The notes below the pieces were generated by a model that searched no databases, was not told the DNA's origin, and saw only the letters and a list, made by a program, of their open reading frames with translations. A DNA stretch of 64,000 nt from Sulfurospirillaceae bacterium (GTDB lineage Bacteria > Campylobacterota > Campylobacteria > Campylobacterales > Sulfurospirillaceae), in NCBI GenBank assembly GCA_028684065.1, contig JAQUGO010000002.1, positions 248,001 to 312,000 of the forward strand, given 5' to 3'. This document shows, in pieces, positions 37,354 through 50,397 of the stretch. A program made the position numbers and the translations under genes. Numbering within the stretch: position 1 is the first letter of the stretch; every line of letters begins with the position of its first letter.

Positions 37354-38943
37354 TTATGGTTGTTTATACAGAAGTATATCTTTTCTTTTTTCATAAACAG
37401 CTGTTTGAATACCCATTACCCCCAAAATTGTACTAAAAAGATTGTCTTGAGAGTATGGATTGTTAGCATTTTGACGCAAAGCATCTATGTCAATACGTTC
37501 CTTGCTTTTTGTACCAAACCATAATAGAGCTCCAATATGAGTCTGCTCTTCTGGTGCCATAAAATAAGGAATACCATGCAAGTAAAGTCCATTTTCGCCT
37601 AAAGACTCTCCGTGGTCTGCCATATAAATCAATGCTGTTTGTGCTGTTTCATCATATTGCTTTAAAAAATTGATGGTTTTACTTAAAAAATAATCGGTGT
37701 ATAAAATGGCATTATCATAGGCATTACCAATCTCTTCACTACTGCACTGCTCTACTTGATTCGTTTGACATGTCGGCGTGAATTTTTCAAAATTACTTGG
37801 GTAGCGTTTATAATAAGCAGGACCATGATTTCCCATTTGATGTAAAACAATCAGGACATCTCCTTTTTGTGCTGCAATATATTCTTTCAATCCTACTAAC
37901 ATTCCCTCATCGCGACACTCATCATTACAAATCGTATTTGTTTTAGATGTTCTATAATCCTCGTAGGCAACTCTTAAAGCAACCCCTTTAGAATCAGAAT
38001 TGTTATCGCGCCATAACACATTGGTACCAGCATGTTTGAGAACATCCAAAGCATTTTCGGTAGATTTTGCCTCTTTGTCACTGTACTGTGATCTATTTAA
38101 AATTGAAAACATACACGGGACAGAAATAGCGGTCGATGTACCACATGAAGAGACTGCTGGAAGATTGATAATATCCTCTTTTTTTAACAATGGATTCGTT
38201 TCTCTTTCGTATCCATTGAGTGAAAAACGGTTAGCACGTGCCGCTTCACCAACCACGACAATTGTCACCTTACGCATTGCTGTAGGTATTTGTTTAGCAT
38301 CTAGCCCTATAGATTTTAGAGTCATTGAGCGTTGAACGAAACTATCGTAAAGATATTTACCCACAGAATAAATCGGGTAAGTTGGGTTAGTATAAAAACG
38401 CAAAGTTTTATTTTCTCTAAAAAAAGAGGTATAAAATTTACTAAAAGCAAACATTAGTGCAAGACTTATTGCTATAACCAATAGGATAGTTTTGAGTGTA
38501 CCTAAGAACTCTTTTTTATAACTTCCATAACGCACTTCTGTTTTATAGATGAGCCACGAAGGTACTAGTCCTAAGAAAAAGAGATAGCCTAACAATTTAA
38601 AACTCAGTAGGTCAGAAGATTCACTCACATTGGTTTCTGCAATATTTTGAATCATCGTATCATCAATAATAACATGGTATGTATTCATAAAATAATTTGT
38701 CCCAGAGGCAAGTAATACCAATGCAATGAGTATAATCTTAAGACTATAACGACAGGCTACAAGATTGAGTAGCATGATAAGAATAGACGTGAGTACAACC
38801 CCTAATGAAACGATAAACCCAATATTGTGCCACGAAAGAGTATAGACATTCAAGACATTACTAAAAAAAGTATAATTATCTACAAGAACTAAAAAGAGAG
38901 ATACATAAACAATAAGTTGTTTTGAGGTTGCGCGTAAAAGCAT
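37354..38943 (-). CDS. eptC: Phosphoethanolamine transferase EptC-like
   Basis: 529 residues: five N-terminal membrane spans (to about 170), then a periplasmic sulfatase-fold domain. Metal/catalytic residues: Glu233 (VVVGEAARANRF), nucleophile Thr in SCGTST (266-271), MADHGESLGENG with Asp/His. It adds phosphoethanolamine to lipid A, core sugar or, in Campylobacter, flagellar rod protein. Paired with dgkA, which recycles the diacylglycerol by-product. Confidence 0.92.
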   Translation of the reverse strand: MLLRATSKQLIVYVSLFLVLVDNYTFFSNVLNVYTLSWHNIGFIVSLGVVLTSILIMLLNLVACRYSLKIILIALVLLASGTNYFMNTYHVIIDDTMIQNIAETNVSESSDLLSFKLLGYLFFLGLVPSWLIYKTEVRYGSYKKEFLGTLKTILLVIAISLALMFAFSKFYTSFFRENKTLRFYTNPTYPIYSVGKYLYDSFVQRSMTLKSIGLDAKQIPTAMRKVTIVVVGEAARANRFSLNGYERETNPLLKKEDIINLPAVSSCGTSTAISVPCMFSILNRSQYSDKEAKSTENALDVLKHAGTNVLWRDNNSDSKGVALRVAYEDYRTSKTNTICNDECRDEGMLVGLKEYIAAQKGDVLIVLHQMGNHGPAYYKRYPSNFEKFTPTCQTNQVEQCSSEEIGNAYDNAILYTDYFLSKTINFLKQYDETAQTALIYMADHGESLGENGLYLHGIPYFMAPEEQTHIGALLWFGTKSKERIDIDALRQNANNPYSQDNLFSTILGVMGIQTAVYEKRKDILLYKQP

Positions 38944-38981: not shown

Positions 38982-39099
38982 TCCTTTTAACATTGAACGA
39001 AGAGTAAATAATGTGTTGTAGTATAGTAACTTTAGTTAGTAAAAATTTCTATTATTGAATTGTTTATAAAACATTTAGCATGTATTTAAACTGTTTATT

Positions 39100-39105
39100 T
39101 ATACT
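39100..39105 (+). promoter_or_regulatory. -10 element of the candidate small RNA
   Basis: TATACT (five of six consensus bases), placing a start at about 39112. The 331-bp gap 38944-39274 has no gene; it holds the eptC promoter, this RNA candidate and the promoter of the DsrE-like gene. Confidence 0.5.
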
Positions 39106-39111
39106 TTCACT

Positions 39112-39204
39112 ACCAAAACTATTACCTCCTTTTTGGTTACAATCGATTCATTTTAACACCCATTACCTAGATCGCTCAAGCTAGGTAATGTTCTGCTTTT
39201 TTTT
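39112..39204 (+). ncRNA. Candidate small RNA with anti-Shine-Dalgarno loop
   Basis: About 93 nt by reading. Hairpin 1: arms ACCAAAA (39112-39118) and TTTTGGT (39131-39137), loop of 12 nt that contains ACCUCCU; ACCUCCUU (39124-39131) is the exact complement of AAGGAGGU. A single-stranded linker (39138-39160) leads to a terminator hairpin (39161-39190) and a T-run. No ORF of note lies in it. The two-hairpin plan with a C/U-rich loop recalls Helicobacter RepG, but I see no sequence match. Could instead be a leader of the DsrE-like gene. Confidence 0.5.
39161..39204 (+). terminator. Intrinsic terminator of the small-RNA candidate
   Basis: Perfect 10-bp stem CATTACCTAG/CTAGGTAATG (39161-39170 with 39181-39190), 10-nt loop, then TTCTGC and eight T. 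The U-tract is on the plus strand only. No plus-strand coding gene lies upstream within 2 kb that it could terminate. Confidence 0.7.
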
Positions 39205-39238
39205 CAAAAATCTTCTATTGTATTTTTATAATTTTAGA

Positions 39239-39244
39239 TATAAT
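39239..39244 (+). promoter_or_regulatory. -10 element of the DsrE-like gene
   Basis: TATAAT 31 bp before the ATG, preceded by AT-rich sequence; the gene has a strong AAGGAGG site. Confidence 0.55.
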
Positions 39245-39274
39245 TTTTAATCTAAAATTTTAAGGAGGCTTTAC

Positions 39275-39715
39275 ATGAAACATCTATTGACGAAGGTTTT
39301 AGTTGTCGCTGCACTAGCGGCTCCAAGTATGCTCAGTGCTGATGAGCTTAAAGGCATAAATGTGCTTATTACATCTGCTGATGCTCAAACCCAAATGATG
39401 GGCATGGTACTCTCATCCAGTATCTTAAATGACCAAAAAAAAGCTGTTAATATTACTCTTTGCGGACCAGCAGGCGCCTTAGCACTTAAAGATTCTCCTG
39501 CAGCAGACGTAAAAAAACCTGATGGCAGTATTGTTAAGCCTAAAATGGCCTTACAAGGTTTGATGAAAGCTGGTGCAGTAGTACAAGTTTGCCCTCTTTA
39601 TCTTCCCAATGTTGGCAAAGATACCAATGCTTTAGTCGAAGGTATTACGGTTGCCAAGCCACCAATGGTAGCAAAAGGTCTTACCGATCCTAACTTTAAC
39701 AATATTAGTTTTTAA
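39275..39715 (+). CDS. Exported DsrE/DsrF-family protein
   Basis: 146 residues: signal peptide to about residue 22 (PSMLSA), then a DsrE-like fold: GINVLITSADAQTQMMGMVLSS, VNITLCGPAGALALK and LKAGAVVQVCPLYLPN-like MKAGAVVQVCPLYLPN with the family cysteine. DsrE relatives handle sulfur; an exported form may act on periplasmic sulfur or thiols. Two cysteines (LCGPAG, QVCPLY) remain in the mature protein. Single gene with its own promoter. Confidence 0.85.
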   Translation: MKHLLTKVLVVAALAAPSMLSADELKGINVLITSADAQTQMMGMVLSSSILNDQKKAVNITLCGPAGALALKDSPAADVKKPDGSIVKPKMALQGLMKAGAVVQVCPLYLPNVGKDTNALVEGITVAKPPMVAKGLTDPNFNNISF

Positions 39716-48455: not shown

Positions 48456-50269
48456 AAGTGTACCTCACTAAGTTTCTCCTTTAATTTTAATAATAACGCG
48501 TCTTTTGTTAGATTATACTGTGTTCTTTCTCTTCTGTCCCTTACGGCAACACTTTTTTGTTCAACTTCTGCGTCACCGAGAACTAAAATCACCGGAACCC
48601 GCATTGTTTCAGCATTCCTAATGCGCTTATTGAGACTTTCATTTTTTGATGAAATCTCCACATCAATACCCTCGCCCATTAATTCGTTTGCCAACTCTTT
48701 GGCATAGGCCAAATGAGCATCTCCAATAGGCACAATAACCACTTGCGTAGGGGCGATAAAGAATGGAAACTCTCCAGCGGTATGCTCAATCAAGATTCCA
48801 ATAAAACGCTCAAATGAACCCAAAATTGCACGATGCAACATAACAGGACGGGCATGCTCATTATTGGCATCTACATAAGAGATGTCAAAACGCTCAGGTA
48901 AATTAAAATCTACTTGTATTGTACCACATTGCCATTTTCGCTTTAAAGCGTCTGTGATTTTGATATCAATTTTTGGACCATAAAATGCTCCACCACCTTC
49001 ATCAATACCATAATGTATACCATTTTCATCTAAAGCGTTTTTAAGCCCTTCTGTTGCTGCAATCCAATAAGCTTCATCGCCGATTGACTTAACAGGTCTG
49101 GTTGAAATTTCCATTTCATACTTAAATCCAAATGTGTTCATAATAGAATCGACAAAACTCAAAATTTCTATAACATTTTCTTTAATCTGATCAGGTGTAC
49201 AAAAAATATGTGCATCATCTTGTGTAAATTCACGCACACGGAATAGCCCATGTAACACACCGCTTTTTTCATGACGATGAACAACACCATATTCAAAAAA
49301 TTTGAGTGGTAAGTCGCGATAACTTCTGACCTCGTTTTGAAATACTTTAATATGTCCCAAACAGTTCATAGGTTTGATACCGTATTCTGCTTCATCAATT
49401 ACGGTAAAGTACATATTTTCGCCATAATTTTCGTAATGTCCACTAACTTTCCATGCATCTGATTTTAAAATTTCAGGACCACGAACAGGCTGATAACCTC
49501 GTTTACGATGCGCTTTGAAAAGCAACTGTTCTAATTTTGAGCGAAGTCTTCCACCATTTGGCAACCAAATAGGAAGCCCTGCTCCGACTTCATCATCAAA
49601 GGTAAAGAGCTTAAGTTCATTACCAATTTTACGATGGTCACGCTTTTTTGCTTCTTCAATCATCGTCACATAATCTTTGAGACTTTCTTTATCAGCAAAC
49701 GCTATTCCATAGATACGTGTTAACATTTCACGTTTTTCATCGCCACCTAAATAAGCCCCAGCTACTTTAGTTAGTTTAAAAAATCGTAAATATCTCGTAT
49801 TAGGGACATGAGGTCCACGACATAAATCTTCAAAATCACCTTGCTTATAAACAGAGACTTCGCCTTCAGGAATGCGTAAAAGCACCTCTTGTTTCAAATC
49901 ATCGTGTGCAAAACGTTTGCTTACGTCTATTTTTGTGGTTGTGATTTTTTCTATTGGAAGTTTTGCATTGGCAAGTTCCGCCATCTTTTTTTCAATCTCT
50001 TTAAGATCATCATCACCTATTTTTTCACCCACACGAAAATCATAATAAAAGCCATCTTCAATGACTGGACCAACAAAAAACTGTGCATCTTTATACAAGG
50101 CTTTAATCGCTTGTGCCATCAAATGCGCACATGAATGTCGAATGACTTCGAGCGATTCTTTCGAATTGTTAAAAAGTACAGTATTGGCATACGTAGAAGA
50201 AGAGGCTGTTGCAGTTTGCGTGTCGATGATAAGATTGCCATCTTTATAGGCTATCACTTCATTCATCAT
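48452..50269 (-). CDS. thrS: Threonyl-tRNA synthetase
   Basis: 605 residues from ATG 50269 (AAGG 7 nt upstream). Editing domain HxxxH is in RHSCAHLMA (H45, H49), followed by [11 protein letters not shown], the catalytic core ([11 protein letters not shown] zinc Cys) and an anticodon-binding C-terminus ([14 protein letters not shown]). Only ~38 residues precede the editing domain, so the usual N-terminal TGS domain is missing, as in relatives. An open frame running upstream to 50401 is only read-through of the tRNA-Val gene. Confidence 0.96.
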
Positions 50270-50321
50270 ATAGTATCCTTTTACTTGTATGAACTTCCAA
50301 ACCAACGGAAGAACAAAAAAA

Positions 50322-50397
50322 TGGTGGTCGCGAGAGGATTCGAACCTCCGACCACTACCTTGTCGAGGTAGTGCTCTACCAACTGAGCTACGCGGCC
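50322..50397 (-). tRNA. tRNA-Val (anticodon GAC)
   Basis: 76 nt with encoded CCA. Arms read: D stem GCTC/GAGC, anticodon stem CTACC/GGTAG, T stem GGAGG/CCTCT with loop TTCGAAT. The anticodon loop is TCGACAA, giving GAC (Val). Two oddities: position 33 is C, not the near-universal U; and the acceptor stem has a C3-A70 mismatch (GGCCGCG against CGCGACC). Discriminator is A, as for valine. It lies 52 bp upstream of thrS with a TATAAT at 50422-50417. Confidence 0.93.

Follow-up and report, generated by a model that had tools for sequence, protein, structure and literature searches.

The alpha-r14/NfeR1 ('cuckoo') RNAs of alphaproteobacteria are Hfq-independent, trans-acting small RNAs (sRNAs) that occur in multiple copies per genome; their ultraconserved anti-Shine-Dalgarno (anti-SD) loops sit on variable stems, they share a conserved promoter stretch, and they act by occlusion of the ribosome binding site (PMC10746234; PMC3927594). 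The csRNAs of the streptococcal CiaRH regulon, with 2-6 copies per genome, have two stem-loops and an anti-SD sequence and are driven by CiaR through TTTAAG-N5-TTTAAG-N10-TATAAT (PMC3091779). In Helicobacter pylori, the C/U-rich terminator loop of RepG pairs with G-rich leaders, and its authors find no repG homologues outside Helicobacter, Sulfurospirillum included (PMC8295292). CJnc230 (FlmE) of Campylobacter jejuni is an sRNA of ~98 nt with a potential anti-SD sequence (PMC11187230), and LhrC of Listeria monocytogenes is a multicopy sRNA under the two-component system LisRK (PMC4132741, PMC5880928). Those C. jejuni and H. pylori non-coding RNAs that have been compared are reported to be unconserved save for 6S RNA (PMC3847290). 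Here we describe a locus at 39112-39204 of a 64,000-nt stretch of a Sulfurospirillaceae genome (assembly GCA_028684065.1, contig JAQUGO010000002.1, positions 248,001 to 312,000; 'the window'). Judged from its sequence, the single candidate RNA seen there in a first-pass annotation is one copy of a lineage-wide multicopy family of anti-SD RNAs. The family is apparently undescribed; a search of the open-access library turned up no paper on Sulfurospirillum sRNAs.

All the elements that the first-pass annotation had assigned to the RNA, from the TATACT box through the hairpin, 12-nt loop and linker to the terminator hairpin with its T-run, are present. The layout is as follows, with the basis of each assignment in brackets.

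39063, 39074 and 39085 (span 39063-39088), plus strand: TTTA direct repeats, an upstream activator-type element (column statistics, weight matrix)
39100-39105, plus strand: -10 box TATACT (sequence; TATACTT invariant in the 52-copy alignment)
39112-39204, plus strand: sRNA gene of ~93 nt, from the predicted transcription start (folds; covariance-model match, E 1.2e-12)
39112-39137, plus strand: 5' hairpin of 7 bp (39112-39118/39131-39137) with a 12-nt loop (minimum free energy, MFE, fold)
39124-39131, plus strand: anti-SD loop ACCUCCUU (CCTCCTTTTT invariant in 52 aligned copies; accessibility)
39138-39160, plus strand: AU-rich single-stranded linker of 23 nt (fold; poorly conserved)
39161-39190, plus strand: terminator hairpin of 10 bp (39161-39170/39181-39190) with a 10-nt loop (MFE fold; stem covariation in the family)
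39197-39204, plus strand: terminator T-run, starting 6 nt past the stem (sequence)

The loop sequence ACCTCCTT at 39124-39131 is the exact complement of AAGGAGGT, as had been claimed, and CCUCC is at least 94% unpaired across the predicted structure ensemble. The fold of 39112-39204 has a z-score of -3.24, equalled by 2 of 200 dinucleotide shuffles. The upstream neighbour (37354-38943) lies on the minus strand, which bears out the remark that there is no plus-strand gene for the terminator to serve.

A DNA similarity search with 39060-39290 finds matches in nearly all genomes of the genus, mostly two or more in each, focused on the -10 box and the 5' hairpin; E values in relatives reach down to 2e-18 to 2e-23, and two more sites lie in the same genome as the window. 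From these, 63 copies were extracted and 52 aligned. Both CCTCCTTTTT and TATACTT are invariant (52/52), and the stretch ACCAAGAC of the 5' arm is almost so. In the terminator stem all ten pairs have changed with pairing retained: 97.3% of cells are paired, against 73.3% in shuffles, the covariation score is 0.795 against 0.307 (with slid controls far lower), and changes on both sides affect 149 cells, where shuffles give 44 such cells and slid controls 7-16. In the majority of copies the sequence of the terminator loop is UUGCCCG. Both loops are predicted to be exposed; in 113 distinct copies the mean unpaired probability of CCUCC is 0.96 (minimum 0.70) and that of the GCCC terminator loop 0.999.

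With a covariance model built on the family, three clear copies in the genome of the window score 99, 92 and 79 bits, with the next match at 20 bits; the window copy is the one at 79.1 bits (E 1.2e-12). Among 399 genomes of the order, the search that the first-pass annotation had called for gives 135 copies, spread over 41 of the 44 Sulfurospirillaceae genomes with 1-9 in each, and nothing in other families of Campylobacterales except two weak Campylobacteraceae matches. Loop and terminator are both conserved in close relatives, one of the two points on which the annotation had staked its proposal, and the number of copies, the invariant loop, the covarying terminator stem and a common dedicated promoter (see below) strongly support an sRNA with an anti-SD loop. 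That the family is multicopy and has a second conserved loop and a repeat promoter had escaped the annotation. Rfam 15 (4227 families) gives no match at the gathering threshold for the element, including at low stringency, or for ten family loci. A phage or mobile-virus origin was rejected, as the exact 5' motif is not in IMG/VR viral contigs.

The window copy has the -10 box, the 5' hairpin with its CCUCC loop, the covarying terminator and the TTTA-repeat promoter of the family, and by sequence it is a divergent member. Its 5' stem is ACCAAAA/UUUUGGU, where the majority elsewhere have ACAAAAA/UUUUUGU or ACAA..UUGU, and its terminator loop AUCGCUCAAG has diverged from the AUUGCCCGGU of the family, with UUGCCCGG gone; the orthologue in the relative G010 keeps UUGCCCG. 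A strict terminator scan leaves the window terminator unscored, its T-run lying 6 nt past the stem, while in most other copies the T-run follows the stem directly. Two further observations concern variation within the family. In three Sulfurospirillum genomes a subclass of paralogues carries ACGCCAAUU as its first loop, on a longer stem, together with a GCCCCC terminator loop, at these loci.

L179, 1544-1646: paralogue subclass copy, loop switching inside the family
L180, 1553-1655, minus strand: paralogue subclass copy
L181, 1501-1603, minus strand: paralogue subclass copy

In the genus labelled g4 (L146, L150, L151, L154, L171, L172) copies are clustered 0.2-4 kb apart, several of them at ~2.2 kb, and genes of neighbour clusters 4 and 9 lie next to them or in the intervals.

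In 123 copies TTTA-like repeats stand at -48, -37, -26 and -15 from the -10 box, an exact 11-bp phasing. Their consensus is TTTA(A/C), and 9 nt separate the -10 box from the final repeat hexamer. The window copy keeps the 11-bp spacing, with a degenerate fourth repeat near 39052. When a weight matrix of this promoter is run over 845 kb of the same genome, the three sRNA copies rank top at 39.5, 33.8 and 24.3 bits, followed by a match at 20.1; in 906,260 positions around the copies there are just seven other weak matches, two of which are the window copy shifted one repeat out of register. The TTTA-repeat promoter is thus almost unique to these RNAs, and because matches are nearly confined to the copies, the element is specific to the sRNAs and is not a generic promoter feature. 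A weaker TTTA-repeat match (18.3 bits) with a correctly spaced TATAAT lies near 427282 (minus strand) of contig C16 of the same genome and, from its sequence, may belong to the same regulon too.

OmpR/PhoB-type regulators characteristically recognise direct repeats spaced by one turn of the helix. In H. pylori, HP1043 (HsrA) binds TTTAAG repeats whose centres lie 11 bp from each other (PMC5253667); the sRNA promoter matches the phasing of the HP1043 regulon, and the final G of TTTAAG is not conserved in it. By analogy, an OmpR/PhoB-type response regulator may act at the TTTA repeats.

One of the two weak Campylobacteraceae matches is real (G128) and the other unconvincing (G104). Prompted by one weak match outside Sulfurospirillaceae, a pattern for the 5' hairpin (ACAA-N0-6-ACCTCCTTTTTGT) was searched for in 120 Campylobacteraceae genomes; 52 of these match, against 0/120 for the reversed pattern. 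At the inspected loci a -10 box lies 17-22 nt upstream, the sole exception (L250) apparently being inside a coding sequence, and many have TTTA/TTAA repeats farther upstream and a short terminator whose loop is C-rich, for example UUUCCCCCAAA. Across the order the hairpin pattern is limited to Sulfurospirillaceae and Campylobacteraceae, besides matches at control level. A divergent homologue, GUCCGA...ACCUCCUUUUUGUAG with the terminator loop UACCC, occurs in 16 of 49 genomes of the Campylobacter genus g28, downstream of rpsI and upstream of a cadF-like gene (L296-L317). The main texts of three C. jejuni sRNA papers mention neither cadF nor rpsI; possibly a Campylobacter homologue is already listed under a CJnc-type number.

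What the sequences define is a free-standing unit: TTTA repeats and a sigma-70 -10 box, then an exposed, invariant CCUCCUU that a linker joins to an intrinsic terminator. We consider it probable that the family consists of multicopy, Hfq-independent, trans-acting sRNAs that pair with Shine-Dalgarno (SD) sequences and repress translation under a response-regulator-type activator. Conserved letters of the 5' hairpin reach into the 3' stem arm (UUUUU) while the 5' arm varies. This conservation is not needed for stem pairing and suggests an outside partner, AAAAAGGAGGU, an A-rich SD. Of 831 open reading frames (ORFs) scanned in the same genome, 121 have, just 5' of the start codon, a stretch of at least 7 nt that agrees with the loop complement AAAAAGGAGGT. 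The conserved arm and these ORF matches are the reasons for adopting translational repression in trans at strong SD sites. An HP1043-like recognition of the direct repeats by an OmpR/PhoB-type response regulator would switch on all copies jointly, the CCUCC loop would pair with the SD region of mRNAs bearing strong A-rich ribosome sites (AAAAAGGAGGU), and the pairing would block ribosome binding and thereby translation. The C-rich terminator loop, usually UUGCCCG, is possibly a second seed; paralogues could supply dosage and, by their differences in stem and linker, a degree of target specialisation. The broad repressor of translation proposed in the first-pass annotation is, to this extent, also what we infer. 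Hfq was not found in any of the 41 relatives tested, by a search that detected it in 5 of 14 controls; with no Hfq the sRNA would be Hfq-independent, and an Hfq-dependent sRNA was rejected as a candidate for the same reason.

Several points weigh against this proposal. The target prediction that had been called for, covering 831 ORFs in 845 kb (about a third of the genome), has as its best candidate ccoN (cbb3 oxidase), with a duplex of -20.3 kcal/mol (-17.7 to -20.6 across most of the genus). This duplex is equalled by 12 of 60 flank-shuffled loops, no target passed the significance test, and the extended match to ccoN is absent in sister genera; ccoN, whose leader bears an inverted repeat of its own, was dropped as a target on both counts. 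Complementarity to SD sequences is in itself generic. The activator, like transcription of the RNA, its pairing and any repression, is proposed from sequence and predicted structure. The terminator of the window copy is sub-optimal, and the second loop motif is gone from it. In the g28 homologue the predicted fold has CCUCC pairing with an internal AGGG segment, which may mask the anti-SD and make this a self-inhibited version.

The conserved letters of the loop are also the anti-SD core of 16S rRNA, of which the CCUCC core is described as conserved (PMC10783764), and the 5' arm ACCAAGAC is highly conserved without pairing. Both would suit an RNA that titrates a protein, or mimics the CCUCC-carrying 16S rRNA tail, with no pairing to chosen mRNAs. 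We regard this as unlikely: a CsrA sponge would expose GGA in its loops, whereas the family exposes CCUCC and GCCC, and a second conserved loop is not obviously needed for generic mimicry.

Repression in trans also has to be set against action in cis on the gene that follows, annotated at first pass as DsrE-like; its product has no Pfam match.

39275-39715, plus strand: downstream neighbour gene, small exported protein, outside the sRNA (TATAAT at 39227-39232 and 39239-39244; SD AAGGAGG)

The annotation had offered as its alternative an attenuated leader, in which the hairpins would govern read-through into this gene and the loop would pair with its AAGGAGG. The sRNA ends 70 nt before the start of the gene, whose SD complements CCUCCUU; synteny with this gene is retained in one relative (G010), and ~30 copies elsewhere lie just 5' of one peptide-binding-protein gene. 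Over the family as a whole, however, the neighbours form 87 distinct gene pairs. The downstream genes fall into 52 clusters, and 28 of 127 are oriented against the sRNA; upstream genes are split 63/62 by strand. There is moreover a -10 box past the terminator both in the window, where separate TATAAT boxes precede the DsrE-like gene, and ahead of the peptide-binding gene. Because the gene contexts are so diverse, a free-standing transcription unit is favoured, the leader of the DsrE-like gene was ruled out as a candidate, and cis action in general appears very improbable. The peptide-binding-protein gene (ABC substrate-binding-like; L005, L032, cluster 0) is itself unusual: in the copies read it has its own TATAAT, then ~6 nt and ATG without an SD, and so looks leaderless beside an anti-SD RNA. 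A functional minus strand encoding a very short leader peptide (AAAAAGGAGG followed by TTG/ATG) is scarcely credible and was ruled out, for although the reverse complement of many copies reads as an SD, 8 nt and TTGGTAATGAAAGTATAG, the start codon is unconserved (ATG is lost where the site is CAC, CTT or CAG), some copies replace TACCA, and the T-runs and -10 boxes suit the plus reading only.

Elsewhere in the window, 50224-50360 (plus strand) matches the Rfam family of the HPnc0260 antisense RNA at 59.6 bits, where the threshold is 59. This borderline match overlaps a tRNA-Val gene (50322-50397, minus strand) on its antisense side.

If the sRNAs do repress translation in trans as proposed, they would offer a tractable case of target choice by sRNAs whose seed is the anti-SD core. 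For a conserved sRNA of these Hfq-less bacteria, a riboregulator common to Sulfurospirillum and Campylobacter, in up to nine copies, would be unusually widespread. It is possible, if rather doubtful, that the family descends from an ancestral riboregulator of Sulfurospirillaceae and Campylobacteraceae, in which an HP1043/CosR-type regulator activates 1-9 sibling RNAs as a global, SD-strength-dependent brake on translation in an Hfq-less order, and which evolved independently of alpha-r14 and the csRNAs.

Among the described systems, RepG shares with the family its epsilonproteobacterial host and a C/U-rich terminator loop, and differs in targeting a G-repeat through that loop; the published search gave no homologue in Sulfurospirillum, and the copies here have no Rfam match. 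Both RepG and CJnc230 differ from the family in sequence, promoter and range. CJnc230 has CCUU in a single-stranded stretch, is transcribed with flgE from an RpoN promoter and is reported only from C. jejuni, C. coli, C. hepaticus and C. lari (PMC11187230). LhrC is likewise multicopy, and unrelated in sequence and host. Nearest in function are alpha-r14/NfeR1 and the streptococcal csRNAs; the family belongs to neither, and no homology to either was found. It resembles alpha-r14/NfeR1 in being multicopy and in having an anti-SD hairpin loop and a conserved upstream promoter stretch, but alpha-r14/NfeR1 has three or four CCUCCUCCC hairpins in place of one CCUCCUU hairpin and a GCCC terminator loop, and comes from another bacterial lineage; the family copies are without any Rfam match. 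With the csRNAs it shares multiple copies, an 11-bp phased repeat promoter, two stem-loops and an anti-SD sequence. Here, however, the anti-SD lies in the 5' hairpin loop, and instead of the CiaR arrangement the repeats are TTTA(A/C) with 9 nt to the -10 box. In its repeat-driven promoter, its multiple copies and its anti-SD loop, the family thus appears to have converged with the streptococcal csRNAs and rhizobial alpha-r14.
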